Shown here: positions 2,215 through 52,381 of the stretch, in pieces
Position numbering within the stretch: position 1 is the stretch's first letter
How the letters are laid out: each line of letters starts with the position of its first letter
From: Entrophospora sp. SA101
Taxonomy: Eukaryota > Glomeromycota > Glomeromycetes > Entrophosporales > Entrophosporaceae
DNA: 64,000 nt
Direction of reading: 5' to 3'
Assembly: GCA_958430865.1 (NCBI GenBank)
Contig: CAUDNR010002557.1
Span: 126,557-190,556 of the forward strand
The notes under the pieces: generated by a model
Database searches by the model: none
Told to the model about the DNA's origin: nothing
What the model saw: the letters and a program-made list of their open reading frames with translations, nothing else
Translations under genes and position numbers: made by a program

Positions 2215-2245
<31 letters not shown>

Positions 2246-10184: not shown

Positions 10185-10337
10185 TCAGGGTTGGCCATGA
10201 TACTGGTCCATTAATGGTCCATTAGATCCATTAATGTAACCTTTTAACTATATTTAGTATTTCATTAATGGCAATGGACCAGACCAAAACTTGTTGGTTT
10301 CAATGGACCCAGTCTATTTCCAACCTTGCCATCCCTA
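10185..10337. mobile_element. Imperfect palindromic MITE-like element
   Basis: The ends CAGGGTTGGC.. and ..GCCATCCCTA are imperfect inverted repeats (about AGGGwTGGC). The body contains inverted GGTCCATTAATGG / CCATTAATGGAC-type tracts. I could not find a clean target duplication, so the class, perhaps hAT, is uncertain. Confidence 0.4.
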
Positions 10338-11789
10338 AATGAAGGAAAAAATACATCATTAATATCATAAAAAATAAATTTCATAATTTGTACTATAACT
10401 TGATGAGACAAACTTTTTTCATTGATTGATTTCTCACATCTTATATATGATTTTTTTGACCATCATTTTTGAAGGTTTCCACCAGAAGGTACTAAATCAG
10501 CATAAACAAGTTAGCATTAAATGTTGAGAAATTATAATTGTTTATTGTAAATTACCTTTAAATATTTTATCATGAAAATTACTTGTTGTCAAAATCTCTA
10601 TTATCAATACAATCAACAACAACACCATCATAAATGATAAATGTTTGATTATCTTCTATTTTTGTAATCATTGTATTAAAAGAAATTTTTATGCTTCAGT
10701 TGCTACAAGAACTTTATATGGTCTATTTATTTATTTATTTTTTTAAAATATATTATTAATAAAATTTTTTTTTATTTGATAATGTACTTGCTTACTCATA
10801 TTTATTTAATAAATCACCAAATAATAAGTGATTATCATGATCAAAGAGGATGAATCTTAGGTCACACATAATCTCAAATAACGTGATCATTATAGCTTCA
10901 GTGAAAGATCTGCATTTTATAATTTTGAATGCAAGTGTTTTAATTTGAGAATAATATACATGTAAGCCAATTGTCATTTACACAAAAAGTTGTATTACAA
11001 TTTTTATGTTACAGAATGATGTGGCAATTTATATTTATAAAATCCTCACATTCTCATATGCATAAATGCTATAATTGATCATTCTTTGTCTGATATACAT
11101 TCCTTAAATATTTTTGTCGAGGAGAGGTCACTTTGGTTGTGATTGAGAAAAGAGAAATCATCAAAATACTCAAGTTTTGTTTTTTAGATTTTCCTTTAGT
11201 GGGATGCATTGTTTTGTAATTTTCAAACAAGTAAAAGTTATTACACTCAGAACCAAATAGGTCAATGCAAATCATACCCAGGAATTTCAAGAGATCATAA
11301 TATATTATAAAGGAAATTTTTTTACTCCAATGTTGCTTTTAAAATGTTTGATTTATTAATAAAATTAATTCTTTTTTTTCGCTTGTGTTTTGTTGATACC
11401 TAAAAGGCAAATTATTGTCGTACACGTGATCAAAATGGGGTGGGGTAAGTGCTTCTATTAAACAATATTAGCTAATATATGTCAGCGCCCTTATCATTGT
11501 TTGAAAGTTTGTAAAAAGAGTGTAATTCTGTTAATGATAATTTGTTACTTTTTGAAGAAAATGAAGTGACAATAATGACGAAGATGAAATAACAAAACAT
11601 GAAAAAATATCTTTGGATTTTAGAAATTCTTTAGTTATTGATAAATTTTAAATAAAACCATTTTCAATTGAAATCACGTGTTTTACATGTTTCACAAGTT
11701 TCACGATTAAAGTGGTTTTTAGATCTACAAATTTAATTTAATTAAAAATATTCCCAAGTTTTATTAAAACTCAAAAAAAAAAAAGTAAA

Positions 11790-13625
11790 ATGGTGGCATT
11801 ACACAATAATAACAATAACAGTAATAAGAATAATCATAATAATCATAATAATAGTACTAATAGTAATAGCAATAAGAGTGATAATAATAATAGCAATAAT
11901 TTTTCTAAAAATTCTTATTCAACATCATCAAGCAATCATAAAAATCACCCATTAGATTTATTATATTTTGATAGTAGCATTGGTAATTCAACATCAACGT
12001 CAACGTCAACGTCAACGTCAACAACATCACCCAATTTTATAACAAAACTTTTACACATTCCAAGAAGACTAGTTCATTTAACATTTATACGTAATCTAAA
12101 GAAATTCAAAAAATCACAATTATTTCTTGTATTGTTTATATCATTAGTTGTCTGTTCGATATTTTATTTTTTTATTCTGCCATTTATTAGTTTATACTCT
12201 TTAATATTAAAGTATAAATTGAAAAATTATTTATACAACAATGAATTACTACCTTGTTCACTACGCAAGGATCCAATCCTATATATTGTCAACTCAGAAA
12301 ATATCCTAGTGATTTGGGAGACAAATTGTCCATTCTGTAATTCACAAGTCAAATGGTATCAAGTAATCAATAACAATAGTGACACTAGTAATGAAGTTAG
12401 TAATAGGATTTATAATGATGATGATGATAACAATAATAATATTGATGGTAATAACAATGATAATATTAATGATGAAATTAAAGGTAATATTAATAATAAT
12501 GATATAAATGGTATTAATGATATTGATACTAATTATAAAAATGATAATGATAGTGATGAAATTAATAACGATGGTAGAATTTTTTTAAATATGTCTAGTA
12601 TTTTAACACATTTAGAAATAGATGGTTCACATTATTTATATAAGTCATTAATTGGACCATTTAAGAACATTGGTAAATATGAATACGAAATAATTTATCA
12701 ATCAAATGGAAATTGCACAAACAATACCAATTATGAACCAATTGTTATTGCATCAAACACATTTACTATATTTCCTAATTTATCACCACCATCTTCGTCA
12801 CTTTTCAACACATCATCATCTTCATTGTCATCAATATATCCTATAAGAATATTGGGATTTGCTGATAATCAATTTAATTTAAAAACATTTAATCAAATTG
12901 TTAAATCAGCATCAATACTGCACAATCAGCCCAATTTTATATTACATGTTGGTGATTCTGTACAAAATTTTGATAGTTTACAGCAATGGCAAACTGATTT
13001 TTTTGATCCATTGATCAATTATAAATTAATCCAAAAATCACCAATGATTTTTGCTCATGGTAATCATGACTTTAATCCATTGTTAGATTACTATTACACA
13101 ACAAATAAATTATGGTATTCATTCACTATAGCAAATACACGCTGGATAGTATTGGATAGTAATATCGATGAAGAGTCACAAGATAAATGGTTGATAAAAG
13201 AGTTATCATCAATTGAATCAAAATTGGCCAAGTTTCGTGTTGTGGTGGTACACATACCACCCTTTGTTGAATTTTGGGATCCAAAATCCTGGAATGAGAA
13301 ATCAGAAAAATATTGGGGCGATTTTGTTAGGAAGAGGTATGTGCCTCTATTTCAAAAATATGATGTTGATTTGGTGATAAGTGGACATCAGCATAATTAT
13401 CAACGTGGTCAATTTGATGGTACTGTTTACACCATAATTGGTGGTGCAGGTGGTAAACTGGATTTTGAGAGAGTTGAAGATTGGAAAATTTATTCAATTG
13501 TTAGAAAAATTTACCATTATGTGTTGATTGAAATTTGGTCTGATAAATTGATTTGGGTAGTTTATGATATTAATAATAAAATTATAGATAAATTTGAATT
13601 AGGAAAAAGAACAATTTTCACTTAG
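11790..13625 (+). CDS. Membrane-anchored purple acid phosphatase-like metallophosphatase
   Basis: A single-exon 611-aa protein. Residues 1-105 are an Asn/Ser-rich tail and about 109-131 form one hydrophobic transmembrane segment. An Fn3-like N-terminal region of the PAP type follows (NILVIWETN), interrupted by an Asn/Asp-rich insert at about 195-262. The calcineurin-like metallophosphatase core has the metal-binding signatures in order: D in GFADNQ (~357), HVGDSVQN (~385), GNHD (~423), VVVHIPP (~486) and GHQHNYQRG (~531). PAPs hydrolyse phosphate monoesters. The N-terminal anchor suggests a type II protein with its catalytic domain in the secretory lumen or outside the cell, fitting organic-phosphate scavenging. 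GD-x-x-Y, usual in PAPs, reads GDSVQ here, so the metal-ligand Tyr is absent and a non-PAP metallophosphatase is possible. Confidence 0.85.
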   Translation: MVALHNNNNNSNKNNHNNHNNSTNSNSNKSDNNNSNNFSKNSYSTSSSNHKNHPLDLLYFDSSIGNSTSTSTSTSTSTTSPNFITKLLHIPRRLVHLTFIRNLKKFKKSQLFLVLFISLVVCSIFYFFILPFISLYSLILKYKLKNYLYNNELLPCSLRKDPILYIVNSENILVIWETNCPFCNSQVKWYQVINNNSDTSNEVSNRIYNDDDDNNNNIDGNNNDNINDEIKGNINNNDINGINDIDTNYKNDNDSDEINNDGRIFLNMSSILTHLEIDGSHYLYKSLIGPFKNIGKYEYEIIYQSNGNCTNNTNYEPIVIASNTFTIFPNLSPPSSSLFNTSSSSLSSIYPIRILGFADNQFNLKTFNQIVKSASILHNQPNFILHVGDSVQNFDSLQQWQTDFFDPLINYKLIQKSPMIFAHGNHDFNPLLDYYYTTNKLWYSFTIANTRWIVLDSNIDEESQDKWLIKELSSIESKLAKFRVVVVHIPPFVEFWDPKSWNEKSEKYWGDFVRKRYVPLFQKYDVDLVISGHQHNYQRGQFDGTVYTIIGGAGGKLDFERVEDWKIYSIVRKIYHYVLIEIWSDKLIWVVYDINNKIIDKFELGKRTIFT

Positions 13626-16600
13626 TATTAATTTTAATTTTTCTTCTGTTAATTATACTTTGTAAATACATATGATTTTTTTATTTAACAATTAGTTCAT
13701 TATAATTTTAATATTTTATGGATAACATTAATTTATTATTTTTCAAGCATACCGTTTTCTATATGATTTTGCAATGCAATTTATTTTCTTTTTTTATTAG
13801 GGTATTATGAATAAGATATAAAAGGCAAAAAAAAGTTAGAAATTATTAAGCTTCTTGCGAACTGACTTACATGGAGCTTTTTAAAATAATAAAACCAAAT
13901 TTTAATGTAAAGAATTTACCTTTAAAATTAATTTCCAGTTGTAGTAATTCCTATATCACATAGCCACCTTTAATATTTAAATATACAATATAATAAAAAT
14001 AAGGCAATGTTTAGGGAATCAAAAAGAGTTAGGGTCACAACATTGGTGTTTCCTAAGATGTTAAAGAACGAGGAACATGCCAATCTTCACCTTAGTCAAA
14101 GAAGAAGAAACTATCGGAGAGTCAAGGTCATTACGTGGATGACCAACATTATTTTACCAGTTGATTTATGTCCAATGCTTATGGACCCAAGGCTCCAACC
14201 ACTTTCTTACAGTCGCCAATGTGGCTACTCGAAAAATTGGATACGGAACTTATTAAATTTAAAAAGAGCTAGAGATATTCTAAAGTCTTCAAGAGAATTT
14301 TCAACATAGTAGAATACAAACTTCTACTGCCAGATTAGAAGTTGATGGTGCAAAGAATTCGACAATTCTCTAGTGCGAGGCTTTTTCCGTAATGATATAG
14401 GCGCACTAGTAGGATTTGGCAAATCTGGAAAACATCGACAGGAATGCTGAAAGAGCAATAAATCACTGAAAAAACTTCTCCTTAAATAGACGAACGCATA
14501 AGAAATGAAAACCGGGCCATTTTATATTTCGTCAAACACTTTAGAAGTTTTTCCCTTCAAACATTACCTTGCACATTTCGTTATTGCAATATTAATAGAG
14601 ACCCAATCATTAGATAATTTGTATTTGATAATTATTAGTCTCTTCCTCTATGATTTCCCTCTTTTTTCAAAAAAAAAATCGCAGACATAGTTAATTAGTA
14701 TATTATTATATGCCATATCGATGGCCCGATTGTTCAGCGTGGCCCTTCTACTTTGCCCTATAAAAATAATAATAATCTGTTGATTGAAATTTACACAAAT
14801 TTGTAACAGTGTCAAAGTCCATCTTTTCTGGAGAAAACATGTAATTTTAAATCACGAATCGAGGTTTTTTACAAAGGTTGATGATGGATGGCAGATCAAA
14901 CACCGGGAAACTAATATACTCTTAAACTTTTTCTTGGAGATAAGTACTATGACATGAAAATGCGAAAAAAGAAAATCGGTAAACGCCATACACGTTGCGA
15001 TGATATAGTCCTTGTTAACCATTACCTAAATGGAAGGGAGAGTTTATAAAAAAATAGCAGATCGTTTAAACCGTATTACGAATTAGTTTAGCGTTAGATT
15101 AAATACTAATTATCAAGTTCGAGATAGCATTCATTTTCCAATTTATGAGTGAGTCCTCCTGAGGTTTCGAGCGAAAAATGCTTATCCAAGACCAGATATT
15201 AAAGGGCCATTAGCAAAAAGGATGAAATTTCAGCAAAATGTAAATATCGTGTTAGATACGATTCCAAATATGACAGTATATGATGAATGTTAGGTGAAAT
15301 CAAAACACTTCGCATGAATGAGAAACTTCTTATACAACAGTATATATTAATATCGGCATTTGGTAAACCCTGGTCACTCTAGATTAGAATTCTAGATAAC
15401 TTTTATTTGAAAAAAGAATTTCATTTTTAAAACATTGAATTATCTTATATTCACAAAGTATGCCTTCTTTTTGCCAACACATTCATCAAAAAAAAAAAGC
15501 AAGCAAATAAAAATTTTTAATGTGCCTGCCTATTGTTACAAAACCTACAAATTGAATAAAAATGGGATATACAATAAATATGATGAAAAGGCAATTGAAG
15601 CAGGTTGTGATTGCTCAGAAATGATTCCAAAGAATTAATTTGCAGAATTTGCAGAGCTTTTCAAGCTCTTACTAAATCAGAACAAGATATCTTCTTAATG
15701 GTTCAGCTAACAGCAATGGATGGTGGAAAAATAAGTGCTAGCGAACGCCTTAAAAAGAAAGCTCGTGTCAATAAAAAGACTTTTTATCGCTGAAATCATA
15801 ACACAATCCTTTGTCAAAAAGCATATCTCAATATACTAGGAGTTGGTAGAACTTACTTTGGAAATATCAGAAGTCATTTAGTAAACAATGGCCTCACATA
15901 AGAGCTCATTTCAATGCAAAAAAAATGCCCCGATGAAAAACCAAAATGGTAATCGATAAAAAATGTTGCCAAGATTGTAAAGAATTTTCTTTTAAATCAT
16001 ATAGAAGTACATGGGTTGGTTTACCAAGTCCAAAAAGAATTGTCAATAGAATAACCCAGTCGGTTATATATACTTACCAGCAGAAATATTCATAGAAACT
16101 TTCTTGCTGGTCTAGAAGAAGACAGCAATTTGAAGTCATGATGCATTTCGTAAATTATAACATCAATTAACTCCTCAAATTCAAATTATGAGTTCAAGAA
16201 ACAGACTTGTGTGATAGCTGTCACAATAAAAGGAGACTAAAAACTTGCTAAGAAGATACAAAAAGCATCTGTCAAAAGCAAAATTAGAAAGAAATTATTA
16301 TAACAAGAATACAAAATTAGAAGAAATCAGAATTATTTGAATGACAAGACATAGTATGAAGAAAGACCGTGAGATAAAAGTCATTGGAATGATTGTCTAT
16401 AACCTTTTTACTTTGCGCTCTTTCCACAAAGGATTTTGGAGAAAAGGGAAAGTTTTCCTTTATAAATGTGATATTATTAACGAAATGCTAAATAAAAGTT
16501 GAAATAACAGCAGACGTTAATAATTTACTTATGAAATTCGCATGATCCAAAAAAGCAGTGAAAAATTGCTTTTTTAAAAAAGAATTTTTCGGCAAAGTTC

Positions 16601-17373: not shown

Positions 17374-20300
17374 TTACTCCACATACTCGCCTTCTTCAGC
17401 ACTTGAATCCCCATGATGATGTTTTTGACGAAATTCAGGTTTGGAAGATATTGCTTTACCAACTACTTCTAATTTAGGCGACGAATTTTTATCAACAGCT
17501 TCTATTTTTGGTGATTGACTTTTTGATTTATATGTAGCAACAGTAACAGTAGCAGTAGTAGTTGAAATAGAAGATAATAATGACGTTATTAAATTGCTTG
17601 AAGAATCAGTACTACCAACATCAGCATCAGCGATACTAAAAGTATTATTAGCAGATGTAACGATGTTAGAAGTAGAAGTGGTAGACGTTGGTTTATGATG
17701 ATCGTGATGAAGTCTTGGTGATTTTGATGAGTGTGTTATGTGTTCACCATGTTTTAATTCAGAATGTCTACTACCACTATTATTGCTGCTACTATTATGA
17801 TCTTGATATCTTGATTCTGAATGTCGTGATTCGTATTTGGGTTTTTGCTAAAATAAAATTTTTTTATAACAAATTATAATAAACAAGAAGATCGAAAACA
17901 TATACTTTTAAAAATAAAATAAAATATATTATATACTTTTCGTCTTTTTCTTCTATCACCATCTCTTTCTCTGTCAGAATAATCACCAGCACTTTCTGCA
18001 GAATTATCAGAATTGTGATGACGTCGATGATGATATGATGATCTATGGGTTTTATGTTTTCTTTTTTTATCTGACGATGTATGTTTATCATCTTCATAAT
18101 CATCATCCTTAAGTGTACCCTCTTCCTCCTCACTGTCATCATCTTTTTTATGAAATTTTTCCTGCGGAAAAAAAAATTTAAAAATAAATAAATGATAATG
18201 TCATTTGTAGTTATATATGTGTATATATATATGCATGTATTAATATTACCCTAATACGGTCCATAAACTTGTTAAAAATTTCAATGCGTTGTTCTTCTGT
18301 ATCGATTGCTTTAAATTCGTCAGTTTTTTCAATGTGTGGTCTTGCCTAAATAATACCAACAAAATAAATTATTACATAAATATAAAGTTTAATGATTTAA
18401 TTTTTTAAAAAAAAAGGAGATAAAAGATAAACCTGATCATATGTTATTTCTGGCGTCAGGGATATATCCAAATTCTTGTTTAATATTGATTTAAATGCAT
18501 CTATCTTTCGACGTTGTCTTCTTTCAGATTTTCTTTGTAGCTATTGGAAGGAATAAAAATAAATTAGCACATTTTACTAAATCTCGAGTCATTATCATTA
18601 TCATTTATAATTGCGACAAATACTTGTTCAAATATGCTTTTCTGATTTATTTCAGAAATTAAAGATGCTCGTTCATCAGAATTAAGAGTTTCTTTGAATT
18701 GTTCAAAAGTCATTCCTGAATTAACTGAAATATCCTTTGACTAAATTAATTAAATTCAAATATTATTGTTACTTATGTTACTAAAAATTAAATGTAACCA
18801 AATAAAAAAAAAATAGATAATGCTATATTTATATCCTTTGAAATAGATATGTATGTACCTTTAGAACCTCCGTTACAACTTTACGTTGTTGGTACAAAAT
18901 CTTGTCAAGTTCTTCAACAACATCCCAAAATAACTCTAGAGGATTTGATCCGGGTTGGCCAAGCATATTTTGATAACGCTCGTCATTAGTAATTAATGGA
19001 AATATTTCCTTCCACTTAGAGTTTGCATTAATTACACTCTTCTTGCGTAATTCGTCCATCAAAGCACGGTATGCGTCTCTGTTTTTACGTTGTTGTCGAT
19101 TTTGATTTTCAAGTTCACGTTTTTTCTTTTCTGCTGATTCACGTTCCAATGATCTAATATGTTCCTCATAGACAGCCAAAAAATCCAACATATCCATATC
19201 TTGTAACTTTTTATCTCGTTGATATTCAGGCGTGCTTGTGTATATAGTTTGAGCCTCAAGCCATCTTGTAGCCTCTGTTATATTTGGAAGTGATTTTAAA
19301 AGATTACTAAACTTTTCCATATTTTCCTTACGAATTGCACGTTGAATTTCCTAATTATTATTTATTTAATTATCATTAATTCATTAATTAATTAATTATT
19401 GATTTACTATTTCAATAATCGTTAAATATATATGTATAAAATAATTACCTTCTCTTGTTTACGAAGATCGTAGATATATTCACCAAATATTTCTTCTCGT
19501 TGTCTATCATCTTCAATTGCTAAAAATGCATGTTCTTTTCCAAACAATTCATTAATTTTTCTAAAGTCAAAGAATTAAATAAATGAAATGAGTTTTTTTT
19601 TTAAAAAGATAAACAATCATTATATCTAAATATCTAAACATACCTATAACGTGTAGATGAATTTACTTCAGGATGAGATTCAAGTAACGATATAAAATCT
19701 TGACGTATTTTAATAGCTTTTGCTCTTTTTTCATCCTAAAGATAATAATAGTAACAATAGTAATAATTGTTATTATTTAATCCATTAAATAAAAAAGATT
19801 ATGTATATTTGCAAGTCGTGCCTATCTATTTGCATAAAGATAACTCAGCCCCATATATTGGGGCTTATAATCTATTAGATAACCTCTAAATGCGTATATG
19901 TATCATGATCTTAAAAGGTCCTGCAAATGCATATTTACATATGCGCAGAAATATGCAAATAAATAGATGCGACTGCATAAGAAAATAAATTATAATTACT
20001 TCTTCCTTCTTTCTTAGTCCATCAATATAATCATGAAATGCTTGTTTACGCTCGGCTAATGTTTTAAGAGCACGATACATTGGTTTACCAATAATAGCTC
20101 TCATAGTTTGTTCCCATGTCCAATCAGGTTTGACACCCTGTATAAAAAACATCAAAGAAATAAAAATTGTAAGAGAAGAAATAAATGTCATCTCTACAAT
20201 TGGTGCGTGCGCCATGCACACACATATTAAAAAAAACCACATACAGATTCTTTAAGTAATTCATGAAAAGCCTTTTCAGCTTCTTCCTTTGTTTCAAATT

Positions 20301-21283
20301 CGATCTTTTGTGTTTCTTGTTGTTGAATAGGTATGACGGATACATTTGGACCAATAGGAGCAGCGAGACCACCAGATCTTATAGAAATATTACCGGGCGA
20401 TACATTTACAGGACTAACAATCGGTACACTCAATTGTCTTGCTCTCTCAAAATCTTGTTGACTAGGTGACAACAAAGCATTACCATTTGCTTGTGATGGT
20501 GATTCAGAAAATCTATTGGTGAATAAATGTTTAGTATTACATATAAATTAATTTATTTATTTATTAGTTGGTTCATTAACGGTCATATGCATCAAATAAT
20601 AATAATAATAATAATAAGTTTACGTACGATAATTTTTTTTTGTCTTTTTCAAGTTTATCAAGAAATTCTATAAAAATCAAAATAATAAATGTATTAAAAT
20701 CAAAATATAAAATCAATTCTAAAAAAAGAAAGAAAAGAAGATTACCTTTGTATTCAGCTGGAATTTCCCATTTAGATTCTTTTGTGTTGGAATTATAATA
20801 ATATTTACTGCCATTATCCGCTGTAAATTCTTTCCAAGCACAAGAACCTATTGATCGCTAATATACATTATTGTCATCATCATCATCATCATCATCATCA
20901 TAATTATTATCAATTGAAATAACTATTAATAATTTTTTTAAAAAAATCTAGACAATTGATAAGTTAACTAACCTCTTCAGGAGTTTTTAATTCGTCGGGT
21001 TTATCCCAACTACTCTGTTTTGTGATAGAATTAAAATAATATTTTCTACCATCAGGGGAGGAATGTTCAGTCCAAACTGTAGAAGTCTTTAGATATCGTA
21101 CAATATATATGCAATATAAATAAATCACGATTAATAAACCGATCACTAACAAGAGAGAACTCGGGAAGAGAAAAAAAAAATACAAACTGGTGGTGGCGGC
21201 GGCGGCGGTACATATGGTGGAGCTTGTGAAAAAGGTTGCCCAGGGGCAGGTCTAGTTGGGTATGATTGAAAGCCTGCTGGTCT
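17374..21283 (-). CDS. PRP40: PRP40 pre-mRNA splicing factor, exons 2-15
   Basis: A U1 snRNP-associated WW-FF protein bridging 5' splice site and branch-point factors. Exons, 5' to 3': 21188-21283, 20973-21086, 20746-20857, 20628-20667, 20245-20512, 20000-20137, 19644-19735, 19449-19560, 18859-19350, 18624-18740, 18433-18540, 18250-18345, 17937-18161 and 17374-17847. All phases agree. With the displaced first exon (27377-27433, plus strand) the protein is 846 aa. Domains are a Pro-rich start (YVPPPPPP), WW1 ([22 protein letters not shown]), WW2 ([22 protein letters not shown]) and a series of FF domains from [24 protein letters not shown] onward. The C-terminus is Lys/Arg/Ser/Asp-rich. Its own ATG exon is missing from the expected place just beyond 21304, see the inverted repeat there. 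Confidence 0.93.
19806..19980. mobile_element. Small palindromic element inside a PRP40 intron
   Basis: The intron between exons ending at 20000 and starting at 19735 is about 264 nt, clearly longer than most others in the gene. It contains imperfect inverted ends, TTTGCAAGTCGTGCCTATCTATTTGCAT near 19809 against the complement of ATGCAAATAAATAGATGCGACTGCAT near 19951. Splice sites are intact, so it is a tolerated intronic insertion. Confidence 0.45.
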
Positions 21284-21303
21284 CTGTTGTAAATCAAAGA
21301 ATC

Positions 21304-21380
21304 AAGTAAATTTGAAAAATTAGAATGATCTAAATTTATTAAAAGAAGACGTTTATTTATTTACCCCATACATAGGCCTT
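21304..21380 (+). repeat. 77-bp inverted repeat, left copy (breakpoint)
   Basis: This 77-bp tract is the exact reverse complement of 27418-27494. It contains the end of PRP40 exon 1 (CCTATGTATGGG) and the start of intron 1. Right of 21380 the sequence switches abruptly into the unrelated UQCC2-like coding exon. It therefore marks a breakpoint at 21380/21381. Confidence 0.95.
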
Positions 21381-21799
21381 CAACTATTTTTGCTTTGGCT
21401 GCTTTATCAATTTCTGCAATTAATCTAGTATAATATTTTGGATTTGATGCTGGTGTATGCATTTTATCTGAAAGTGGATACTATTATTGTTTTATGAAAA
21501 TTAATATATAATATTGATATATACTAATTATTTATTAAACGAACGCTGACCTTTTCCTTGAACTCGTTATTCGCTAAACGTTTTAATGCATCTAGTTCAA
21601 TTTCTGCCTCAGTAATCAATTTATTGTGAACTTCTGGATCATTAATAATCATATTTTTCTGAAAACCTTCTGTTACCCGTAAATGTAAAACTTGTTTTAA
21701 ATTACGATTTGGTCTTAAATGGTCAGCAGGCCAATTTTCTATTACATGTAAAAAAGAACGATAAAGTTGTAGAATTTCTGCACGTGTTGAATTTATCAT
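21381..21799 (-). CDS. UQCC2/Cbp6-like complex III assembly factor, 3'-truncated
   Basis: Two exons are visible: 21551-21799 (83 codons) and 21381-21480, joined by a GT..AG intron to read EFKEK|YPLSDKMH. The sequence ILQLYRSFLHVIENWPADHLRPNRNLKQVL aligns by eye with vertebrate UQCC2 (LYR-like start, WP.D, R.L..L..RV...F). That mitochondrial matrix protein is needed for cytochrome b synthesis and bc1 complex assembly. The coding sequence runs into the 77-bp repeat at 21380 and would end artificially after a few codons (GLCMG, stop). Its true C-terminus is therefore not in place. Confidence 0.75.
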
Positions 21800-24646
21800 T
21801 CTTTCTTAAAGTAAGTGGTTGAAATTTGTTTTTAAAAAATTTATTTTTTTGTGCACATCTTAAAATTTTTTATGATTTTGAGAAAAATGGAAAAGATTTA
21901 CATTCAAAGAGTTTACTATATTAATATTAATATTAATATTGTTTTTTGAAGCTAACTCAAAATATAATATAATAGTGGGTATCTAAGCCAAAAAGGATTC
22001 TATCTAAAGAAGATAAGACACATACATTTTCATTCACTCAAACATATACGAAACAGCAATTAACTATTTTAATATTAAGTTCAGGGTAAAAAAAAGAGTG
22101 TTCAATTTTTCCGGGACTGGGAAAATTATACTAATACTAATACTGTATTAGTATTAAATACTATACTAATACAGTATGTTGATCCCGGGACCGGGAAAAC
22201 TATATCATATTAATGCGAATCTTAGTTTTTCATAATTATACGAATCGATTTTCCCGAACACATTTAAAATCAAAATAGCCGAGGACATGTGAAATTTATC
22301 TTTATTAATTAACAAGGAAGTTTTTATATCTTAAAATGAGCATAAATTAAAAATGTTTCATCGTCTGTTTGCCAAGGATTAATATCAGAGTAAAAGCGTA
22401 ATCCCAAAAAATAAACTTCTTGTGGTGTAATATGAATTGCAATGTCTCCTCCTGCCAAATTTGCACATGAAAAAACACTGTTATAATACTGGATAATAGA
22501 AATATATGATAAATGATCTCAAAATCCTATTATTACTCTTTCTTAGAATGTCTTTTAAAGTTTGCAACTTGATAATTGACTCCAAATGAAATAATTTGAC
22601 CATATTTGCAAATAACTTTTTAGCATTGACAAATTAGGGTATGTAATAAAATATTTTACTATTTTTACACTTTTTTTTTTTTGGTATAAACAATGTTTTC
22701 ATTACTATTACCAATATATTATGTTTGCGAATCGGTGTAACCGAGGACATTTTTTCCCCAGTCATTTTATCCCTGATTAAGTTGCAATTAGGGTTTGTTC
22801 ACAAACCCTAGTTGCAATATTAATATTTATTTATTTGTCGCACAACCCTTAATTCTAAATTACGTGCTGCGCCGCTTACCGAATTTTTTTTAAAAAAAGA
22901 TCTACGGTATATCAGTAAATCGTCTCCCATCCTGTTGCTTGGTGGTCTCTTGAAGTTCTTATAGTTTATCGAAAAGAGCTCTATAATTTGTAGTAGACGA
23001 TTTGGCAAATTTCTATGATATTTTCAAAATTCTAAGAACATTGCCTGATTTTTTCAGTTACCGAAATCCATTTAGAAGAATTAAATCAGCAGAATTATAA
23101 AATGCTATTATAGCAACTTGCCCATGATTATAAAGATCCAATGAATAATCGTAATAATTATAGATTTAAGACATCACCTCCGAAATACAACAAGGGCCTT
23201 TCATAGACTCAAAAAACCTACTATATATTCTGTCTGATTTTCTGCTTACGAGATTGGATAATAACAATCATGTAGGAAAAGCACATTGCAAAGTTAATAT
23301 GGTCTCAACATGAAAAGTTCCTTATGAAGGATGTTCAGAGAGAACTCATATTTCATTTGTTGAAGTTTCTGGTATTGCAGACTTCAATGAATACAACAAT
23401 CGGGAAGCACAAGTAGTATATTTCTTGGCAAGGTGAAATGCGTGATGGATACAAATCAAGTCTTCCCAAAAATAACAAAGTTTTAAAGCCTTTGTTAAAA
23501 AAATAAACAAATTTTTTTGCCGTCCACCTAAATAAACTTATTCGCCTAGCACCAAAATTTTTGTTTTGATAGTTTTAATTATTTATTCGTCAAGTCTAAA
23601 AATTTTTATGCATCGTTTATTATTGTTATTTATCAAATGTAACAACAAACAATCTCGATAAACTCTAGGATTGTGTTTATATACTTTATTTTTATTTTCA
23701 TCAATCAGTTTAATTAATTGGTTGTTGTGATTGACGATTTTGAATTCATTCTTGCAATTTCTTTGTTTCTTCATCTATTTTTTATTATTATTATTATTAT
23801 TATTTTAAGGTCTTTCGAGATTTTCAATGTAACATCCAGATTCCAATGAAATCATCGATCCATTATAATTAATAATGTACATGTGTGAGTGTGTATGTAT
23901 GCAAAGGGTAAATAAATTAATATATGTATGTATACAAATGATCGTCACCCAATAAATAATCCCCCCTAAGAACATTATTGTTATTTAATAAAAAAAAATA
24001 TTTATTCTGTTTAACAGTTAAGGTAAGTTGTTTTCTAAAATAACAAATATGATAAAGATTTTCCAATAAAATCATGTACGATCTTTCATTTTCATTTAGT
24101 TCGAAATTTGAAAATCAACATTAGTGCACTCTTTGTTTTCCAAATCAGTAAAACAGCAAGTATAAAGATTTACTAATAAAGTCTTTGATAATGGAATAAT
24201 GGTCTGGCTGGAGATGGGGTAACACTGCAATTAGAAATAAATAATTGGTTATTCATATGATCACATATTTACTTTAAAACAATAATTCTAATTCTAAGCG
24301 AGATAAATAAACAAATATGTTCATTGTTAATGAGTTATTCAAAGATGTAATATTATAATTCGACTCTAAATAGTTTTTCCTTCCTTGTCATGATTTTAAA
24401 TTTTAAATTTTAAAAATATTATAAATATCTGCTAAAAGTATTTCCTTCAAAAAAATTTATTATTCTCAAACTGCATATAAATAATAATTAACAACGTTCA
24501 TTCATCAATCGTTCATATTTATTCATTCATTTTTTTTTTAAAAAAACAATCTCTTCTTCTTCTTCTAACCTTTTTCGAGTCATTAGTTACTTATTTATAA
24601 TCCTAATCCGAATTTCAAACCCAAACCTAATCATAATCATAAAAAA
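21800..24646. other. Intergenic region with decayed repeats
   Basis: No intact gene. Around 22105-22260 there are palindromic tracts (ATACTAATACAGTAT and CCGGGACCGGGAAAA-like boxes) suggesting a MITE. From about 23040 to 23520 a stretch of less biased composition gives broken frames on the plus strand, for example FVEVSGIADFNEYNN, with many stops; this is probably an old pseudogene I do not recognise. The CT-rich tract before 24647 is the likely 5' region of the 7TM gene. Confidence 0.45.
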
Positions 24647-25951
24647 ATGAGCGTCAACGAAACATTGAGGTTTTGTGATTGGCGCATAGAAATCTATAAT
24701 TGCGTTATGAGTGATATGTTTAGAATGGAAGCGATGACTTCATTGATAACTTATGGAATATTAGCAATTACTGGATCATTTATATTTGGTTACCGTTATA
24801 AACATATGTGGAAAGGTTTATTTATCAACCATTGCGGCGGGATAAGACCCCTTCCAGTTGACAGTTTATTGTTTTTTTGGACAATTGCCTGCTATCTTCG
24901 TGCATTACACTCGTTGCTTATGATATTGGATGTTTACACAACTTATTTACAAAAAGAAACTGTTCAAGAAATCGGCTGGACTGTGTTATGTTATGGTGCT
25001 GTAACTTATATCATAGGAATAATTTACACGATTCCAGCTAATTATTCTCGCGGACTAACTTCATCAAAGAGTAGAAAATCTAGAACCAATAATAGTAATG
25101 ACGATGGTTACAAAATACGTACTATTTATATTCCATCACCAACCGTCTTAAATATTGTATTGCTTTGCTGGTGTCTATATCCTACTTTAACATGCTTTCC
25201 ATTTGCCATATTATCGGGAATTGCCAGAGACAATGGAGATGAAAAATTAGCTAATAATTGGACAATGGCTCAGTATATAGCTTATTCAATTCATGATTTG
25301 GTATTATCGGCTGTTGGAATTTATTATGGAATTAATTTCATGTTAATATTAAGACAATCAGTTAATCAATTCAAGTCATCAACTGCTGCATCATCATCTG
25401 CAACTTCGGCTACTAATACTAACGCCGTTAAATCTTCAGCGAATTATTATCAATCAAATGGTAATGTTACGCGCGAAGCATTAGATAGGCTCAAATATAC
25501 AATGACTTACATTGCTATATTACCTTTGGTTGCTGCGCCATGGTGGTTTACTTTTGGTGTTTATCGTCAAAAATTTATCACTGTTGCAAGTTTCTCTAAT
25601 TTATTTTTATCTTCCATGTGGCATGTAACTGGTGTGCAGCCATTGGTCGCTGTGTGCCAATATGTGTTAGTAAAAAGAGTTTATCAACATTATAAAAGTA
25701 ATAAAATCGATAATGGTGGTGATATTAATACTGCAACTATCAAAACCACCACCACCACTACAATAACAACCACCTTATCTCCACCTTCGCCTCCTGGTTC
25801 ATCAACTACATTAGGAAATTTATCTAATGATGATGATAATAAGGGAAGACGTATGAGCGACGACGCTTCCCAATTCTCAGTGGATCTTGATTTTCACGAA
25901 AAAGTTGAAGACGATGATTTTAATCAAGGGTCTAAGATGTTCAACGTTTAA
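24647..25951 (+). CDS. Seven-transmembrane receptor-like protein
   Basis: A single-exon 434-aa protein with seven hydrophobic segments at about 29-50, 73-95, 107-130, 163-190, 205-232, 280-304 and 311-335. A Ser/Thr/Asn-rich loop separates TM5 and TM6. The Thr/Asp-rich cytoplasmic-type tail includes a nine-residue acidic run and ends GSKMFNV. TM6 contains LPLVAAPWWFTFG. The topology suits a fungal GPCR-like protein, but I do not recognise a named family (not obviously Ste2/Ste3, Pth11 with CFEM, or microbial opsin, since no Schiff-base Lys is evident in TM7). Ligand and function are unknown. It lies inside the segment suspected to be inverted. Confidence 0.8.
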   Translation: MSVNETLRFCDWRIEIYNCVMSDMFRMEAMTSLITYGILAITGSFIFGYRYKHMWKGLFINHCGGIRPLPVDSLLFFWTIACYLRALHSLLMILDVYTTYLQKETVQEIGWTVLCYGAVTYIIGIIYTIPANYSRGLTSSKSRKSRTNNSNDDGYKIRTIYIPSPTVLNIVLLCWCLYPTLTCFPFAILSGIARDNGDEKLANNWTMAQYIAYSIHDLVLSAVGIYYGINFMLILRQSVNQFKSSTAASSSATSATNTNAVKSSANYYQSNGNVTREALDRLKYTMTYIAILPLVAAPWWFTFGVYRQKFITVASFSNLFLSSMWHVTGVQPLVAVCQYVLVKRVYQHYKSNKIDNGGDINTATIKTTTTTTITTTLSPPSPPGSSTTLGNLSNDDDNKGRRMSDDASQFSVDLDFHEKVEDDDFNQGSKMFNV

Positions 25952-26473
25952 TAATAATAAACCTTTTTCGAGATAGAAAAAAATCTAGATAGAAACTTTA
26001 AAAAAAAAAAATAGAAACTTTTGAGAAAAAATAGAAAAATATATAAAAATAACATATACATTTATTATATTATTTAATTATCATTCATTATTTATATATT
26101 ATCACATAGCAATTATCATTATTTTATTATTACATTGCAATTGAGATGTGGACAACCAAATTAGATTTTGGTCAAGCTGGAAATTTCACGCCCCAATTGT
26201 CATTTTGGAATGGAGATTATTGATTTTATATTTTCATTTTTATAAATACACGCATGCATATACATCACACACATATATATATATATATATTATACACACT
26301 TTTCATTTTTTTTTTTTTGTTTGTAAATTTACATAAATTACATTTGTATAAATAAATAAACTTTTTTTTCAAATTGGTAATGTTCTAGATTTTTAACGTT
26401 CGTGTGACATGACCTTGTTTTTTTCCATAAAATATTTTTTTTGTATATTTGATTAGAAAATTTTTAATTAAAC

Positions 26474-27155
26474 ATGACATATATCACAGACTGGAATGAA
26501 TTTCAAACTGGTGTTGAGGAACTTTATTTGAATTCTCCAAAAGAGGTATTAAACAAATAATATGGCAATATGATGATGCGATAATATGATAATTGTTTGT
26601 TTGTAATTATTTTTTAAAAATATAGACAAGATATTTAGTTTCTTGGAAACATTCCCAGGCTTCACTTGTTTTAAAAGTGACTGATAATTTTAGAGTGTTG
26701 AAGTATAAAACAGATCAGGCTGTTGATCTAAAGAAATTTGAAAAATTAAACAAATCTTTAATGTGTAAAATGCAAAATCGTAAAATTCCAGACGATCAAG
26801 GTATTATTTTAAAAGTTATCAAGAAAAACAATTAGAATATAATGTTTATTTGATATTTGTATTCGTTGTCAAGAATCTGGATTTAATAATTAATTAATTA
26901 ATTTTGGGGATATATTTTTTTTCTTGATTGAATTTTTCTTTTTTTCTTTCAGTTGTTGAACCAACGGCATCAACTACACCTTCCGTCACCAACACTGCTG
27001 CTTCTACCACTTCTACCAATGTGGCCACTATAAAATCAGAGTCATCACAAGTTGTTGCATCAGAAGTGACTTCCACAAACATATCGTCATCATCATCATC
27101 ATCAAATGTTCAAACTTCTTCAAAGAAGAAAAAGAAAAAAAAAGGTGGTCGCTAG
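26474..27155 (+). CDS. SRP9: Signal recognition particle 9 kDa subunit
   Basis: Three exons, 26474-26545, 26626-26800 and 26953-27155, give 149 aa. Residues 1-82 match SRP9 closely by eye: MTYITDWNEFQTGVEELYL, then SWKHSQASLVLKVTDNFRVLKYKTDQAVDLKKFEKLN. SRP9 binds the Alu domain of SRP RNA with SRP14 and mediates elongation arrest. The C-terminal third is a Ser/Thr-rich extension ending in a Lys run (SSKKKKKKKGGR), longer than in animals; it may aid RNA binding. PRP40 exon 1 follows 222 bp downstream on the same strand. Confidence 0.92.
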
Positions 27156-27376
27156 TATTATTTCTATTAAATTTCTTTTATTTATTTAATGATACCTTTT
27201 CTTTTATTATGATTTATATTCATACTACTCATAATAAAATACATTATATTAGAAAATGATTTATTCTTAATAAATACGTATTTTTTAATTTATCTAAAAA
27301 TTGTTGTGTGATCATTTCCTAGTATATATATTTATGCTTAAAAAATTTTTTTTAAAAAAAAAAGTTGAAATAAAAA

Positions 27377-27433
27377 ATGTCTTGGAATCCACCAGGTGTT
27401 CCACAATATAGTCAACCAAGGCCTATGTATGGG
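27377..27433 (+). CDS. PRP40: Displaced first exon of PRP40
   Basis: The ATG opens 19 codons (MSWNPPGVPQYSQPRPMYG), followed by a GTAAAT donor at 27434 and 61 nt of intron before the gap. The intron is the exact complement of intron sequence at 21304-21364, directly upstream of PRP40 exon 2. Joining gives [13 protein letters not shown] in frame, the expected Pro-rich start of PRP40. The exon is on the opposite strand from the rest of the gene, so the gene is split as assembled. Confidence 0.92.
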
Positions 27434-27494
27434 GTAAATAAATAAACGTCTTCTTTTAATAAATTTAGATCATTCTAATTTTTCAAATTTACTT
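27418..27494 (-). repeat. 77-bp inverted repeat, right copy, abutting gap
   Basis: Reverse complement of 21304-21380, ending at the last base before the run of N. Left of 27418 the genuine PRP40 start exon continues. Confidence 0.95.
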
Positions 27495-27504
27495 NNNNNN
27501 NNNN
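27495..27504. other. Assembly gap (10 N)
   Basis: Ten N bases. The left side is PRP40 intron 1. The right side is repetitive intergenic DNA with a GTTAATAAGTGGTTATTAAC palindrome. The gap marks a scaffolding join, not measured sequence. Confidence 1.
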
Positions 27505-32393: not shown

Positions 32394-34873
32394 TTTAACT
32401 TTATTTATAAAAAAAAATTGTATTTTGAAATAAAATTTAAATTTTGAATGAGTGTAACAAATAATAATATAAACAATAAACGTGATAAAAATCGATTTTT
32501 CTTTATTATTATTATTATTATAAGTAAATGAAAAGTTTAATTCACCTTTATTAAAATTAATTCATTTAATGATGTACGAAGAAATTTCTGACATGACTAA
32601 AGTATTGGCTAAAGACAGTTTCTCGCCAATGGTCATTTTAAAAACATTCGGCGAAAGTATTAAAAACAATGGCAATAAAAAATATAAGGAGTTTTTTCTG
32701 TTTCTAATAATATTTCAATATCTGTTTCATCACTTGCCACCTCCTCTTACTCATCATTAATTATTGAAATCCTGATCAATATTTTTTTATATTTTATTTG
32801 ATACTTGAAAAAATCCATATTATAACGCCAAATTCGTCGTAATTCATTAATTTCGATAGTATACTTTATTATAAATTATTATCGCATCATTTAATAAGCA
32901 CATCGAGTATTTGGATGGTGCCTCTGCGATTACTTTTCAAGGACAAAAAGACCTGACATGGGAGAGACTTTATAAGTTCTTTGATTAATCCCTTCCATTA
33001 CGTCATATCTTGGACAATATTTGAACCCAGGAACAAATTTTAATTTCTGAGATTCAAACATTAAATGTTAAATATAAATTGAATTTCATCAGTAGAGTGT
33101 TTGCATTTTAAAGGTCATAACCGTTTAATAAGGATTGTGAGTGTGTATATCTCAAAGAAACAATAGAATTTGATCTTTTTAAGTTTTTACCTGTGAGGTA
33201 GATGAGTTCAATATTAAACAGTGATGTTTCAATAGAAGCTTCTATAAGAAGGAGGAATGTTTGATCATTAAATTATGATGCGAGTGTTAAATGTGCAAAT
33301 AGTAGAAACCAGTGTTTTATTATGTTCAGGTTTCTTGACAAATAGTAGTGCTTAATTGTAGACAGTAACAATAATTCCTGGATTAACAACTAAATTATTT
33401 TTTCCGTTTCATCATAAACCCTTTCCTTTGTTCACGTAGTAGTATAAACTACTTTGTTGATTTTGTTAATTTTGTTGTATGGTTTGGAACATATAATAAA
33501 AAGATTTTGTAGATGCAGGATAAGAGCAATATCTATCTGATCATACTGTTGGATTACAATTATTACATTCTCATTTATGATTAATTGAAAATCATAAATC
33601 AATCTTTCTCTACAATATTTTTTTTTTCAGAAAGTGATTTATTTCTATCAGGCGTATTTATTTAAGTGAATATTTCATTATGAATTTTATGTCTCTTCTA
33701 AAATCTTTACAAATAAATTTTATTTCAAAAATGTTGGTCGACAAGTTTATGGTTTATGACTCTAGCTTTGAATTTTTTTTAGAGACAACAAAAAATTTTA
33801 ATATAAACATGCTTCTTTATCCATTTAATTCAGAGCCAAATGGTCGGTCGTATTTAGATATTTCAATGTATGTCAGAAATCAGGCTTTGAATTCTAGATA
33901 GTATACAGTGATAACACTTGCTCAAGTCCTTCGCTTCTATCTTTTTCTTGGATTCTTTTGTATTCTTGGTATTGACTCATATTTAAAAAAAAATTTGATT
34001 GATAATTGACAAAGAGTCTAAGACGAGGGAACCAGGCATTCGTTGACAAACATACTAGAAATCTTGTTATTTGGAGTCAAGCATAATTTGAGAATTTTTT
34101 TATTATTACACTAGTCATAATTAACTTCAATAAATCATATGAATAATCAACTTAATACTAATTTATTCTTTGCTAGTTCCTTTAGTAAGGAAATCTGCGT
34201 TTATTTCTTGGGTAAATAAATTTAAAAATTTTTATTTTAAAGAAAAAAAATTTTTTTTGATAATCAAAATTACCCGTGCCATCATGCAAAAATTTATCAA
34301 CTCAAATACCAACTACTTCTCTTTTTCTTGTAATTCATTGCACACTCATAAATCTCACTTGTAATCCCAACCTCTCCTCATTTTTCAACTATTTCATTCG
34401 TACATTCACGAAATCTTTCTTGAACTTCTCAAATTGCTCTTTTAATAAGAGCCACATTTATTTCCCTAAAAGTTCTTTTGGTTTATTTTTTTATTCAATT
34501 AATTGTTTGAAATAAAAAAAATCACACGAGAATTAGTCACATATTAATGAAAAATCTTAAAGGCATAATTCTAATGTGCGGTAGTTAAGTAATATTAATA
34601 TTAACATTAGCAAGTATTCTTTGTTTAGAACAACAATACTAATAATAATAATTATTAATAACAACAATAATTAATTATTATTATTTCTATAAACAATTGG
34701 TTTTCTATGGTATGTTTAATAGAAGAAAAAACTAAGATGATAAATTTTTTTTATCAAACTTGATGATGATGCTTTCCCACAACAGATGCACGGGACACAT
34801 AATGCCAAAATTATTATACAAAAAAATTGATTTATTTAACAAAAAAAAGTAACAAATAATTTAAATCATCCTA
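32394..34873. other. Intergenic region of tandem unit 1 with kinase debris
   Basis: No intact gene. A short frame at 32569-32760 (MMYEEISDMTKVLAKDSF) has no recognisable relatives. From about 33000 to 34870 the DNA is a diverged counterpart of 40020-42440 in unit 2. It includes kinase N-terminus remnants at 33370-33640 and the CAACTCAAATACCAACT..TCTTTTTCTTGTAATTCATT block near 34300. Confidence 0.5.
33370..33640 (-). pseudogene. Kinase N-terminus relic, unit 1
   Basis: By eye the strand complementary to 33370-33640 matches the first exon of the kinase pseudogene at 31860-32260. Shared tracts include ACATTCTCATTTATGATTAA..GAAAATCATAAATCAATCTT and CTCTACAATATTTTTTTTTTCAGAAAG (the CRESFIYDFE region). 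Deletions and stops destroy the frame. The equivalent lies at 40280-40600 in unit 2. Confidence 0.5.
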
Positions 34874-36613
34874 TTAAGGAAAAGCGCACATCTTCTTAAA
34901 ATCGCACCCAATATGATCACTAAAAAGTTCTTTAAACCTGTTCCAGTCACAATACTCACTTCCACAACCCGGAATCACAAGTGGTTTAAAGTTAAATACC
35001 GCTCTTATCTTTACATTATCCTTGTGATCACCTGAACAAGAATATACTTCCCAATAAAGTGTAGAAGACCAGGGCATACTTGCATATCCTGTAAACTTGA
35101 CTTTTTTAATTTGTTCAAAGGTTAAATCTGCCGTGAGTGGATGTTTTTCTTTAAATAATCCCTGTGATCAAAAGGCAATATAGATGTTATCATCAAAGAA
35201 CAGAAGATGAAATAAAAATGAAATTTTTCATATACCAGTAAAGTAAATGTTAAAAGTAAAGTAACTCCATGAGTATTCTTCAAATCAGCTATCATAAAAG
35301 ACTTCCCACTTAAATAATCATCAACTCCATTTACAAGTTGAGTAATATAGCGACAAGCTATTCGCTTATTAAAAGGATGTCCATATTGTAATGTATGATA
35401 TTCGTAAATATCCCAATAATATCGTAATAATAGAAGTTCTTTACGGCTTAGTAATGAACACCATGTGTCAGCTCGATTAAAATGAACGACCCAAAACTGG
35501 CAATTAGTAAACATATATGGTAATAAATGTGGATCAAGAGGCGGACTAAGACCATGTTCATCAGAAAGACGTTTTGCAATTTGTGCTAGAGTCTTGTTGC
35601 CATAGGAATAAAGTTGTTCATCTCGTAATGGATTGTTTTTAAAAACGGTCTCATTCCATCGTGAGCAGGTATCAAAGAATGGTGTCAAAATCTCATCTTG
35701 CTCCTATACAATATAATATTAATATATTAATATGTGTGTTAACAGATTTGAACAAAAATGGATTATAAATGGCATAGTAAAATTTTTATACCACTGGTAC
35801 AGACGAAATGTATACAGGTTGACTTTTACAAGTGTCTAAAGAGCCTTTGCCATTAAATAATCCTTCGGAAAAGGCCATTGCCGATGCACCAGCTCTTTAA
35901 ACAATATTGTATATTATATATGTGTGTGTTAATTAAAATAAAAAAAAAAGTAGAATTCCAAACATGAAATTGTACCTTGAAGTACCGGCACTTTGAAATT
36001 TTACAACTTCGGGATCGTATTTGACTCTCCAAAATTCTGGGTATCTTTGACGAGACTGCTTACCATCAAAAAACGATTCGATTTCTCCTCGTTTGATCAA
36101 TTGAAAATTTTTCCTCATCGGGAAAACATTTTTATACTATATATAAAAAGAAAGATGTTTTTTCAGTTATGATAAATTTTAATGAATATGACAAATAATG
36201 TTTATTACCCATTCTTTTGCAATAGGAACATTAGCAAATGCTTTTTCCAATTTTTCATAGGCATTAATATCATTTGGGGCTGGATATCTCGCTCCTAATA
36301 ATTGTTTTAAAAGGATTATTTAATGCGGTCAAATTTGTACATGTTTGTATACGAAATAATATTTACCATGTCTCATGTTCAAATGTAACTGTACTAATTT
36401 ACATTTCTCAGGATATTTCACGGGTTTAACATCAAGAGAAAAGGCAGTCCGTTCTGGTTCAAGGTAAAATAAGTTGCCGTTTATAAGTTGTTCTAGAGAA
36501 TGTTTGTATACATGGCATTGTGTCGGATTATAGGAAACAAATAAAGCAAAGATAAAAATTGAATATATAATGTGGTGTGAAAACTGCATCTTCTTTAGAA
36601 TTGCAAGTTGCAT
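34874..36613 (-). CDS. Secreted MINPP1-like histidine phosphatase, paralog A
   Basis: Six exons: 36367-36613, 36209-36294, 35976-36136, 35792-35894, 35236-35703 and 34874-35161, giving 450 aa (442 if the second Met starts). A hydrophobic signal peptide follows Met9 (HHIIYSIFIFALFVSY). RHGARYP spans exons 1-2 (about 81-87) and SAGTSR lies near 160, as in multiple inositol polyphosphate phosphatases, which dephosphorylate phytate and higher inositol phosphates. Conserved features include DTCSRWNETV and a Cys-rich C-terminus (PGCGSEYC, CDFKKMC). The proton-donor motif, H-A-E in MINPP1 or H-D in other acid phosphatases, reads THGVT near 344, so catalysis may be altered. Secretion would fit phosphate acquisition or symbiotic signalling; that is inference. 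Confidence 0.85.
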
Positions 36614-39386
36614 TTGTTCAAGAAAAGAGAATCCATTTCTTTATATATTACGTTAGGTCGATTATATAATAATAATTTAAATTGTTTAAGGAACGAAATT
36701 TCTATTTGGAATTTTCTCAAATAACATTTAATGGTAATCTTTTAGATAATGTTGAGATGAATTTCACGATCGCCCAATAATAATAATGTGAAATTTTGCT
36801 TTGTGGAAACCCTTAAAAATTTTTAAAATAATTATTTTTCAAGAATAGTTAGCAACCAAGTATGATCTATTAAAAGAACAATTTCTAAAGTTTTTAAAAC
36901 AAGGGATAATTGCTTTAGATCCGAAACAACAGACTTAATAAACAAGAAGTCATCAAGCTTCATTTCTTGAAATTGCTTCGAATTGAACAATTGAGTAATT
37001 TGAATAAACGAACAAAACGAGTAATATAAGGATTGAGTTGTATTACGAACGTGAATTTCTATTATGTGGATAAGGATTTTTTAATTCTCCACAAAATATC
37101 TGAGCAAATTTTATACAGTCAAACAAACTCGTTCCAACGAATTCATAATCAACGAAATTTAACAACATATTAATTAGTAATTTTGGTACAATGAATCTTA
37201 AATGGGTCTGTACTAGGAAAATCGAGCTTCCAGCTATTTTTTTTTTTTTTGTCTTTTTACTCAACAATAATCTCTAATAAAGGATTTACAGTTGGTGAAA
37301 AAATTGGACCCTGATTGCATAGTAGAAAAATGAGATACAAGGCTTGGAATATTTTCTTTATATATTAAAAACATGTAACCAAATTTATAAGGGTTGTTAC
37401 TAAAAATAGATTTTTTGTCTGGGAAGGTTGATTTTCCTATATAGTACAAACCCCAAATGCTAAATTAGCTTGATCACAAATATTGGAATCTTAATTGTTC
37501 TCATTTGAAATTTTCTAGTCTGCCATAAAATTATTGATGATGATTTAAATGTTCTAATTCAATTACGCGTAATAATACAATTTATTATATTTATTGTTGT
37601 TTTACCTTTATAATTATTCTATTATTTTCAGTGGTCTGCAAAATCATGATTTTATAAAAAAAAATAATACTAAATTTCAAGTTGGCTCGAATTAAGTATA
37701 AACTCGGCTTGTTCAGAGCTTTGTTCACAGCAACATGTTTAACAAAAGACATGATAAGGTCCAAAAATTTTCCTCGCTCAGCTTTAGTTAATTCAGAATT
37801 TTTTTGATCTATAATCAATTTTATTAACAAATTTTTACCATGACAAAAGCATAAAATTTTGCTCAATTTTATCTCTGAATTGAAATCTATAAAATGATAT
37901 TTATTTGAAAAAAAAATTATAAATTAAGTTAAACTTTATCGAAGGACAGCAGCTGTGTTGAATCATGTTTCAGTACTGCTGGTCGTATTGAATAAAACTA
38001 TTATAAGATGGATTTTGTTAATTTGCTATTGAATCCATCTTAGAAATATACTTTAAGAAGTTAGATGGTACTAAAAAATTTTGACATTTTGAACCTTCTG
38101 AACCTGATGTTGTAAAAGCCCAGACGGCCCTTTCATGAATTAAAGCTAAGAGAACAAAATTTTCAATATCATAAAAGATATTATAACCTTAACATTTCCC
38201 ATATTATCCTATGGAGCCTAAGCATCATCATTACCGAAATTCAAAACCTAAATCGAAAGTCAAACTATGGATACATTTCACTAAAAATCGCTAATTCTTT
38301 TGTCAATTAACTATAAAAAATATTATCAAAAAATCATTATCAAATTTTATAATTAATCCTAGTTAATCCAAACCTTTTTTTAGCCTATTTCCTCAGTACG
38401 GTTTCGGTTTAGGTTTCGGTATCTTGACATAGTTTCGGTGGACACCGTAGTCAAGCGCTGAAACAACTTTCGCAAAATCCACTTAGTGCCTTGTTTTTGG
38501 AATTTTCTTTATTTCGTTCAAATGATTGTAAAAAAACAACCTTTTCTATTTTCTCTATCGTACATAGAAATCTTCGGTGAAATATAAATACACTTAATGG
38601 TACCGAATAATTGCAAATAAATAAAATGTCACTCTTACAAAGCTCAACGGCTTCTGTAAAGTTCCTTTTATTTCAGTTGTTTTTTTATCTGGCCAATTTT
38701 AGTTTATTTACAAAACAATTTAAGCAGCTTGTTTGACGGTCTTACGTTGCAATTACAATAGCACCGCTAGTATTTCCAATAACCTTTGGGTAATACTTTA
38801 ATAACCATTGCTAATACCCATAAGTTAACCAACCTTTGTACTAAATGCTTGCTCACTCACTAAATTATATTATTAATAGTTACTAACACACATTAGTTAG
38901 TTCAATAACTTAATGCAGTTTTTTACAAATGTTCCACAATTGTTGCCTTCTTACCAAGGCACTCCATTTGTTACTTTTACCAAAACGCTTTAAACGAAAA
39001 ATAAAGCAACGGTATTTTTATTTTAAAAGTTTATTAAAGACGTTAAAAATTAATTTTATTTACTAAAAATAATCATTTGCTACAAGGTTTTATGTTAATG
39101 CTTTTTCAAGCAAGGCCTGTGAAAAATGAAGGTTTAATAAATAATCATCAGTGTAGTTGTCATAATAATATATAATTATAATTAATAGTTGCCAAAATTA
39201 TCTCGTAATTATTTAAACTCCTCATTAAATTGGAGAATATTGAGTATTGACATGATATTTTTTTATCCCATACATAACATCACGCAAAGATAATAATAAT
39301 AATGCGAATACAGTTCACTCTCTCTATAACGAACCCTCTGTCCCTATATGTAATTTCTCTGCTTTTGGTCGTTATAGAGAGAGTTT
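35522..39386. repeat. 3.87-kb direct repeat, copy 1
   Basis: Identical, as far as I could compare, to 43101-46965 at a constant offset of 7579. It starts inside exon 5 of the MINPP-like gene (first mismatch at 35521/43100) and ends inside the MITE (first mismatch at 39387/46966). It therefore covers the 5' half of the gene, its upstream region and 78 bp of MITE. Confidence 0.92.
36614..39308. other. Upstream/intergenic region of MINPP paralog A
   Basis: No supported gene. Minus-strand frames at 37043-37267, 37261-37449 and 37591-37866 look like pieces of one decayed coding sequence (for example LTKAERGKFLDLIMSFVKHV), but I recognise no family and stops intervene. Near 38397-38425 is a GGTTTCGGTTTAGGTTTCGGT tract typical of some transposon ends. 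The whole region is duplicated at 44193-46887. Confidence 0.45.

Positions 39387-52350: not shown

Positions 52351-52381
<31 letters not shown>

Follow-up and report, generated by a model that had tools for sequence, protein, structure and literature searches.

Assemblies built on de Bruijn graphs, of the SPAdes type, leave repeats of length k at the nodes where paths fork, and SPAdes commonly finishes at k=77 and inserts short runs of N. Natural inversions that arise from staggered breaks leave short inverted duplications at both of their ends. Inverted joins are also a product of multiple displacement amplification (MDA), for which the part of the report by Lasken and Stockwell (2007, PMC1855051) drawn upon here gives more than 85% of 475 chimeras as inverted sequences with intervening deletions, and more than 70% of the chimera junctions as lying at matches of 2-21 nt. 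According to the parts of PMC6987183 and PMC10512289 drawn upon, genomes of arbuscular mycorrhizal (AM) fungi, one Claroideoglomus included, have been assembled with SPAdes from MDA-amplified nuclei, and one MDA/SPAdes workflow for these fungi yielded duplicated genes.

The window, by which is meant the whole stretch of 64 kb that was analysed, forms the final 64 kb of scaffold C1385, which has 190,556 bp and belongs to an assembly of 101.3 Mb in 2,123 contigs. The proteins nearest to those of the window genes are from Entrophospora candida, an AM fungus formerly named Claroideoglomus, and the DNA would be that of E. candida itself or of a relative almost identical to it. The features on which the argument turns are the following:

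17374 to 21283, minus strand: PRP40 exons 2-15, with WW and FF domains (exon model, Pfam and alignment to the E. candida protein record P0012)
21304 to 21380, minus strand: left copy of the 77-bp inverted repeat, genuine PRP40 sequence, of which 16 nt (21365-21380) belong to exon 1 and 61 nt to intron 1
21361 to 21799, minus strand: Cbp6/UQCC2 gene, with exons 21799-21551 and 21480-21361 (PF20180, UQCC2_CBP6, 88.7 bits; alignment; gene model)
21377 to 21381, minus strand: the junction 21380/21381, held to be a false adjacency, where AAGG suits PRP40 exon 1 as well as the Cbp6 protein of E. candida
24647 to 25951, plus strand: single-exon, intronless open reading frame of 434 aa, a seven-helix (7TM) protein according to the initial annotation
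26474 to 27155, plus strand: SRP9 gene of three exons (PF05486, 43.3 bits; 119 of 120 residues identical to residues 1-120 of P0012)
27377 to 27433, plus strand: PRP40 exon 1 (MSWNPPGVPQYSQPRPMYG), 57 nt including the ATG, followed by 61 nt of intron
27418 to 27494, plus strand: right copy of the 77-bp inverted repeat, genuine PRP40 exon 1/intron 1 sequence that ends at the gap
27495 to 27504: scaffold gap of 10 N; a dispersed repeat starts about 106 bases past it

With the k-length repeats of de Bruijn forks, the locus shares an exact repeat of 77 bp that has one copy at a 10-N gap, and it differs from them in that the repeat is a single one and that the assembler and its k are presumed. With natural staggered inversions it shares a short inverted duplication at both ends, but the second breakpoint product, which would carry the rest of Cbp6, was not found in the searches of genome, scaffold and window described below. 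As in the MDA chimeras, in so far as the part of PMC1855051 drawn upon portrays them, the join is inverted, the joined segments lie less than 10 kb apart (about 6 kb here) and the part between them is skipped; a short match at the junction may be a further likeness, putatively AAGG here, with ATTAAC and TCTTCA seen at two other joins in the assembly. The difference from these chimeras is that the join is seen in a finished assembly and not in reads, and that amplification of this DNA is itself presumed.

The initial annotation had described the two 77-bp stretches as exact complements, with the right one touching a gap of 10 N, and direct comparison confirmed both points. The copies are exact reverse complements over the 77 bp, the right one abuts the gap, and the bases immediately inward of the two copies are unlike each other. 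From the base composition, approximately 10^-31 such pairs would be expected by chance in 64 kb. Searches of the assembly with the 77 bp matched the two copies only, and a second copy with the correct order was absent from the assembly. Together with 21284-21303, the left copy supplies the whole 81-nt intron 1 of PRP40, unbroken into exon 2. The segment between the copies measures 6,037 bp, and across it the end of Cbp6 is joined to PRP40 exon 1 in the opposite orientation.

It had been proposed that PRP40 is split across the two strands and comes back into frame once the segment is re-inverted, and this is indeed what was found. All 13 introns of exons 2-15 are GT-AG, and the joining of exon 1 to these exons gives a PRP40 of 846 aa with zero internal stops and GT-AG introns. 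A Pfam scan of residues 1-689 of this protein detected PF00397, PF01846 and PF25432 (WW, FF and PRPF40A-type FF domains, respectively), and the MSWN start that exon 1 encodes here is present in five of the six glomeromycete PRP40 records compared. When compared with P0012, 734 of the 738 aligned residues are identical, outside 90 gap positions, most of which are stretches omitted by the gene model of P0012.

The junction also breaks a second gene. The UQCC2-like gene of the initial annotation does belong to this family, as PF20180 indicates, and is itself truncated at the same junction as PRP40. Its product is 98% identical to the E. candida protein, and its frame crosses the junction after residue 116 and from 21380 runs on the letters of PRP40. 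The aligned C-terminus is ...AKIVEG-LCMG-stop in the window versus ...AKIVEGAKKPSFWKRIFG in E. candida, where the tail reads ...AKAKIVEGAKKPSFWKRIFG. For this alignment nine of the 11 matched relatives were used, the short records P0004 and P0010 being left out, and a PS-x-W tail is found in eight of these nine, E. candida included, P0011 being the one without it. Querying the entire assembly with the protein of E. candida brought up the window gene, split in two, and one weak match (E 4.2), but not the tail. Given that a tail of 12 residues could escape a protein search, a degenerate DNA pattern for KKPSFWKR was also tried, and it gave zero matches genome-wide in the assembly outside its N stretches and zero matches in the window at up to three mismatches; a scan for the motif in all six frames of the scaffold likewise showed no such tail.

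The description of the locus as an inverted 6-kb segment holds in so far as flipping the segment repairs PRP40, but Cbp6 then still lacks its C-terminus and carries 77 bp of foreign sequence as its tail. Given that PRP40 and Cbp6 are cut at one point and that the flip mends only PRP40, the fault is better described as a single false adjacency at 21380/21381 together with a broken end at the gap. The AAGG at this adjacency is probably a microhomology, with the nucleotides on the Cbp6 side being deduced from the protein of the relative.

Gene order in related genomes had been named as a check, and the E. candida record P0012 (9315_t:CDS:10) places SRP9 and PRP40 on one strand. This record carries SRP9 in residues 1-120 and then passes directly to RPAGFQ of PRP40 exon 2, with PRP40 exon 1 missing. 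In the order drawn in the window, SRP9 and PRP40 exons 2-15 lie on opposite strands, and in the re-inverted order the fusion of SRP9 to PRP40 exon 2 needs a mis-called intron of 449 nt. Given that such a fusion is possible only with both genes on one strand, in E. candida SRP9 would lie on that strand upstream of PRP40, an order deduced from the protein record and not from the DNA of this fungus. The record favours the re-inverted order, and is silent on the position of UQCC2/Cbp6. The fusion itself is likely an error of gene prediction that carries the SRP9 domain label. In Diversispora epigaea the locus names are Glove_326 for PRP40, Glove_122 for Cbp6 and Glove_74 for SRP9, numbers that we take to be those of scaffolds; if so, the three genes are unlinked in that draft, which makes it uninformative on their order. 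The third protein-coding sequence between the 77-bp copies, the open reading frame of 434 aa, gave no Pfam match at E 0.01, nor a convincing relative in the PDB.

Fold-back joins and duplicated pieces recur in the assembly, as seen in one whole scaffold (C1385) and in 38 kb of a second (C1525), the latter having been picked for its visible inverted pair and not at random. C1385 is a mosaic, in which one segment of 17-23 kb occurs four times, its copies being 99.6-100% identical:

C1385 26341 to 47832: copy of the repeated segment
C1385 87006 to 110159: copy of the repeated segment
C1385 117091 to 140270: copy of the repeated segment
C1385 173444 to 190556: inverted copy of the repeated segment
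Window 1 to 13714 and 46888 to 64000: the repeated segment in window coordinates

Positions 1-7708 of the window are found inverted at 46888-54595, with the match extending beyond the left edge of the window and, at the other side, as far as the contig end; C1385 also carries an inverted stretch of 18.9 kb at 99.94% identity. For the four-copy segment, redundant assembly of one locus is likelier than a real duplication. At the far end of the 18.9-kb stretch, at C1385:75479-75484, the inverted copy turns to the forward strand through the 6-bp word ATTAAC, and a fold-back join of the same layout at C1525:21253-21258 has the 6-bp shared word TCTTCA; the turns of these two joins are 1.3 and 1.9 kb away. 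C1525 also carries an exact head-to-tail duplication of 517 bp (41205-41721 and 41722-42238), which is possibly another assembly artefact. Window positions 34128-39502 and 41661-47082 are tandem copies, 93.8% alike at a spacing of about 7.5 kb, and the ends of these copies (CGTTATAGAGAGAG...) are also found at 7514-7708.

The initial annotation had further ascribed the repeat to a graph error with a k-mer of 77. This is plausible given the 77 bp at a 10-N gap, and a repeat of this length with one copy ending at N10 fits a fork artefact if k is 77; the presumed value is read from one repeat. The path into the inverted block has exactly 78 bp in common with the tandem repeat of 34128-39502 and 41661-47082, and path switches of C1385, which share 78 and 125 bp, are compatible with k=77 and not diagnostic of it. 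At the fold-back joins the shared word, of 6 bp, does not have the length of k. At window positions 63903-64000 the contig breaks off on the axis of a palindromic element, about 145 bp long, which is dispersed in many copies in the genome and has a MITE-like shape. A second exact repeat of 77 bp, between scaffold positions 56655-56731 and the contig end at 190480-190556, was considered as a mark of k and rejected, given that it lies in this dispersed palindromic element, where the match is 98% over 98 bp and is cut at the axis. For contig starts, 20 were taken, of which the nine reading N were dropped and the remaining 11 searched as one joined query; in the best 40 of 1410 candidates, the 29 listed matches elsewhere were all longer than 130 bp and in dispersed or duplicated sequence. 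At the two remaining 10-N gaps, a single joined query took in three of the four flanks, the fourth being the end of the repeated segment, and no exact sharing of 77 bp was seen at these three flanks in the best 40 of 305 candidates. Two of them recur exactly over 250-254 bp, one at C755 and twice on C394, the other at C1794, C1506 and C1157, and the third has matches of 81-94% to numerous copies of a dispersed repeat.

Taken as a whole, the layout of the locus is very probably not biological, and would have come about through the entry of an inverted MDA-type chimera into an assembly graph at k=77. Confidence is high that the split is an artefact, and fair that an inverted chimera of the amplification type was carried into it by a k-mer graph. 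In the true order, SRP9, PRP40 exon 1, intron 1 and exons 2-15 would follow each other on one strand, with Cbp6 presumably on the other strand, at a distance of about 6 kb. The nuclei are presumed to have undergone multiple displacement amplification by phi29. In its course a 3' end lying in the last codons of Cbp6 (...GAAGG) would have been displaced and would have primed anew on the opposite strand, where PRP40 exon 1 offers the matching AAGG, and the product would be an inverted chimera in which Cbp6 runs straight into PRP40 exon 1 and intron 1. The assembler, presumably working on a de Bruijn graph with k=77, would have met a fork and taken the chimeric branch from PRP40 to Cbp6, traversing the 6-kb segment backwards and leaving it at the true PRP40 exon 1. 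There the path would have halted exactly one 77-base node further on, and the scaffolder would have written 10 N. A fork at a chimeric junction would leave exactly one k-mer behind on the branch not taken, and the right 77-bp copy looks like such a remnant.

The verdict of an artefact had already been reached in the initial annotation, and it is borne out by the order implied for E. candida, by the second broken gene and by the repeated pieces and fold-backs of the scaffold. For the inverted orientation, graph error alone, the cause then put forward, is a poorer explanation than an amplification chimera. A pure error of the assembler or scaffolder, in which both branches of a k=77 fork would be genuine reads from separate places and the path would be misresolved with no amplification chimera involved, is improbable: it is in keeping with the exact 77 bp adjoining the 10-N gap and with the poor path resolution visible in the duplicated and inverted blocks of the scaffold, but the graph needs a read that links Cbp6 to the 77-mer, searches of the assembly showed no other source for this join, and Cbp6 of E. 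candida continues differently.

Biological origins are less probable still. A real inversion by staggered breaks, perhaps in a minority of the nuclei of a coenocytic fungus and complemented by intact nuclei, would leave inverted duplications at both ends, as are found here, and with many nuclei in one cytoplasm a broken copy could be tolerated. However, such an inversion predicts the tail of Cbp6 right after the right copy, and this tail was not found in the genome, the scaffold or the window outside N; a dispersed repeat starts about 106 bases past the gap, which speaks against it as well, although neither point is conclusive given that the true gap length may differ from 10 N. It would, moreover, break two conserved genes, and is very unlikely. 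A balanced nuclear polymorphism in essential genes, by which a real 6-kb inversion in some nuclei would break PRP40 and Cbp6 and the intact nuclei would supply the proteins, is equally unlikely. The chance that the segment is a programmed one, inverted by a recombinase as a switch that controls PRP40, is close to nil. A gene-bearing segment flanked by an inverted repeat has the outline of such a switch, but the repeat is ordinary PRP40 exon and intron sequence found at this locus only, the orientation drawn breaks two genes, and no recombinase family was detected among the four proteins scanned (the three in the segment and PRP40).

It can thus be said with high confidence that the split of PRP40 is not a real biological feature. 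The amplification chimera preferred here is a warning for draft genomes, given that a single false join breaks two conserved genes. Harm of another kind is seen in the fusion of SRP9 to PRP40 in the E. candida protein record, which probably comes from gene prediction. Work on synteny, gene loss and nuclear diversity that relies on such drafts should first screen them for fold-back joins and for inverted repeats of length k.
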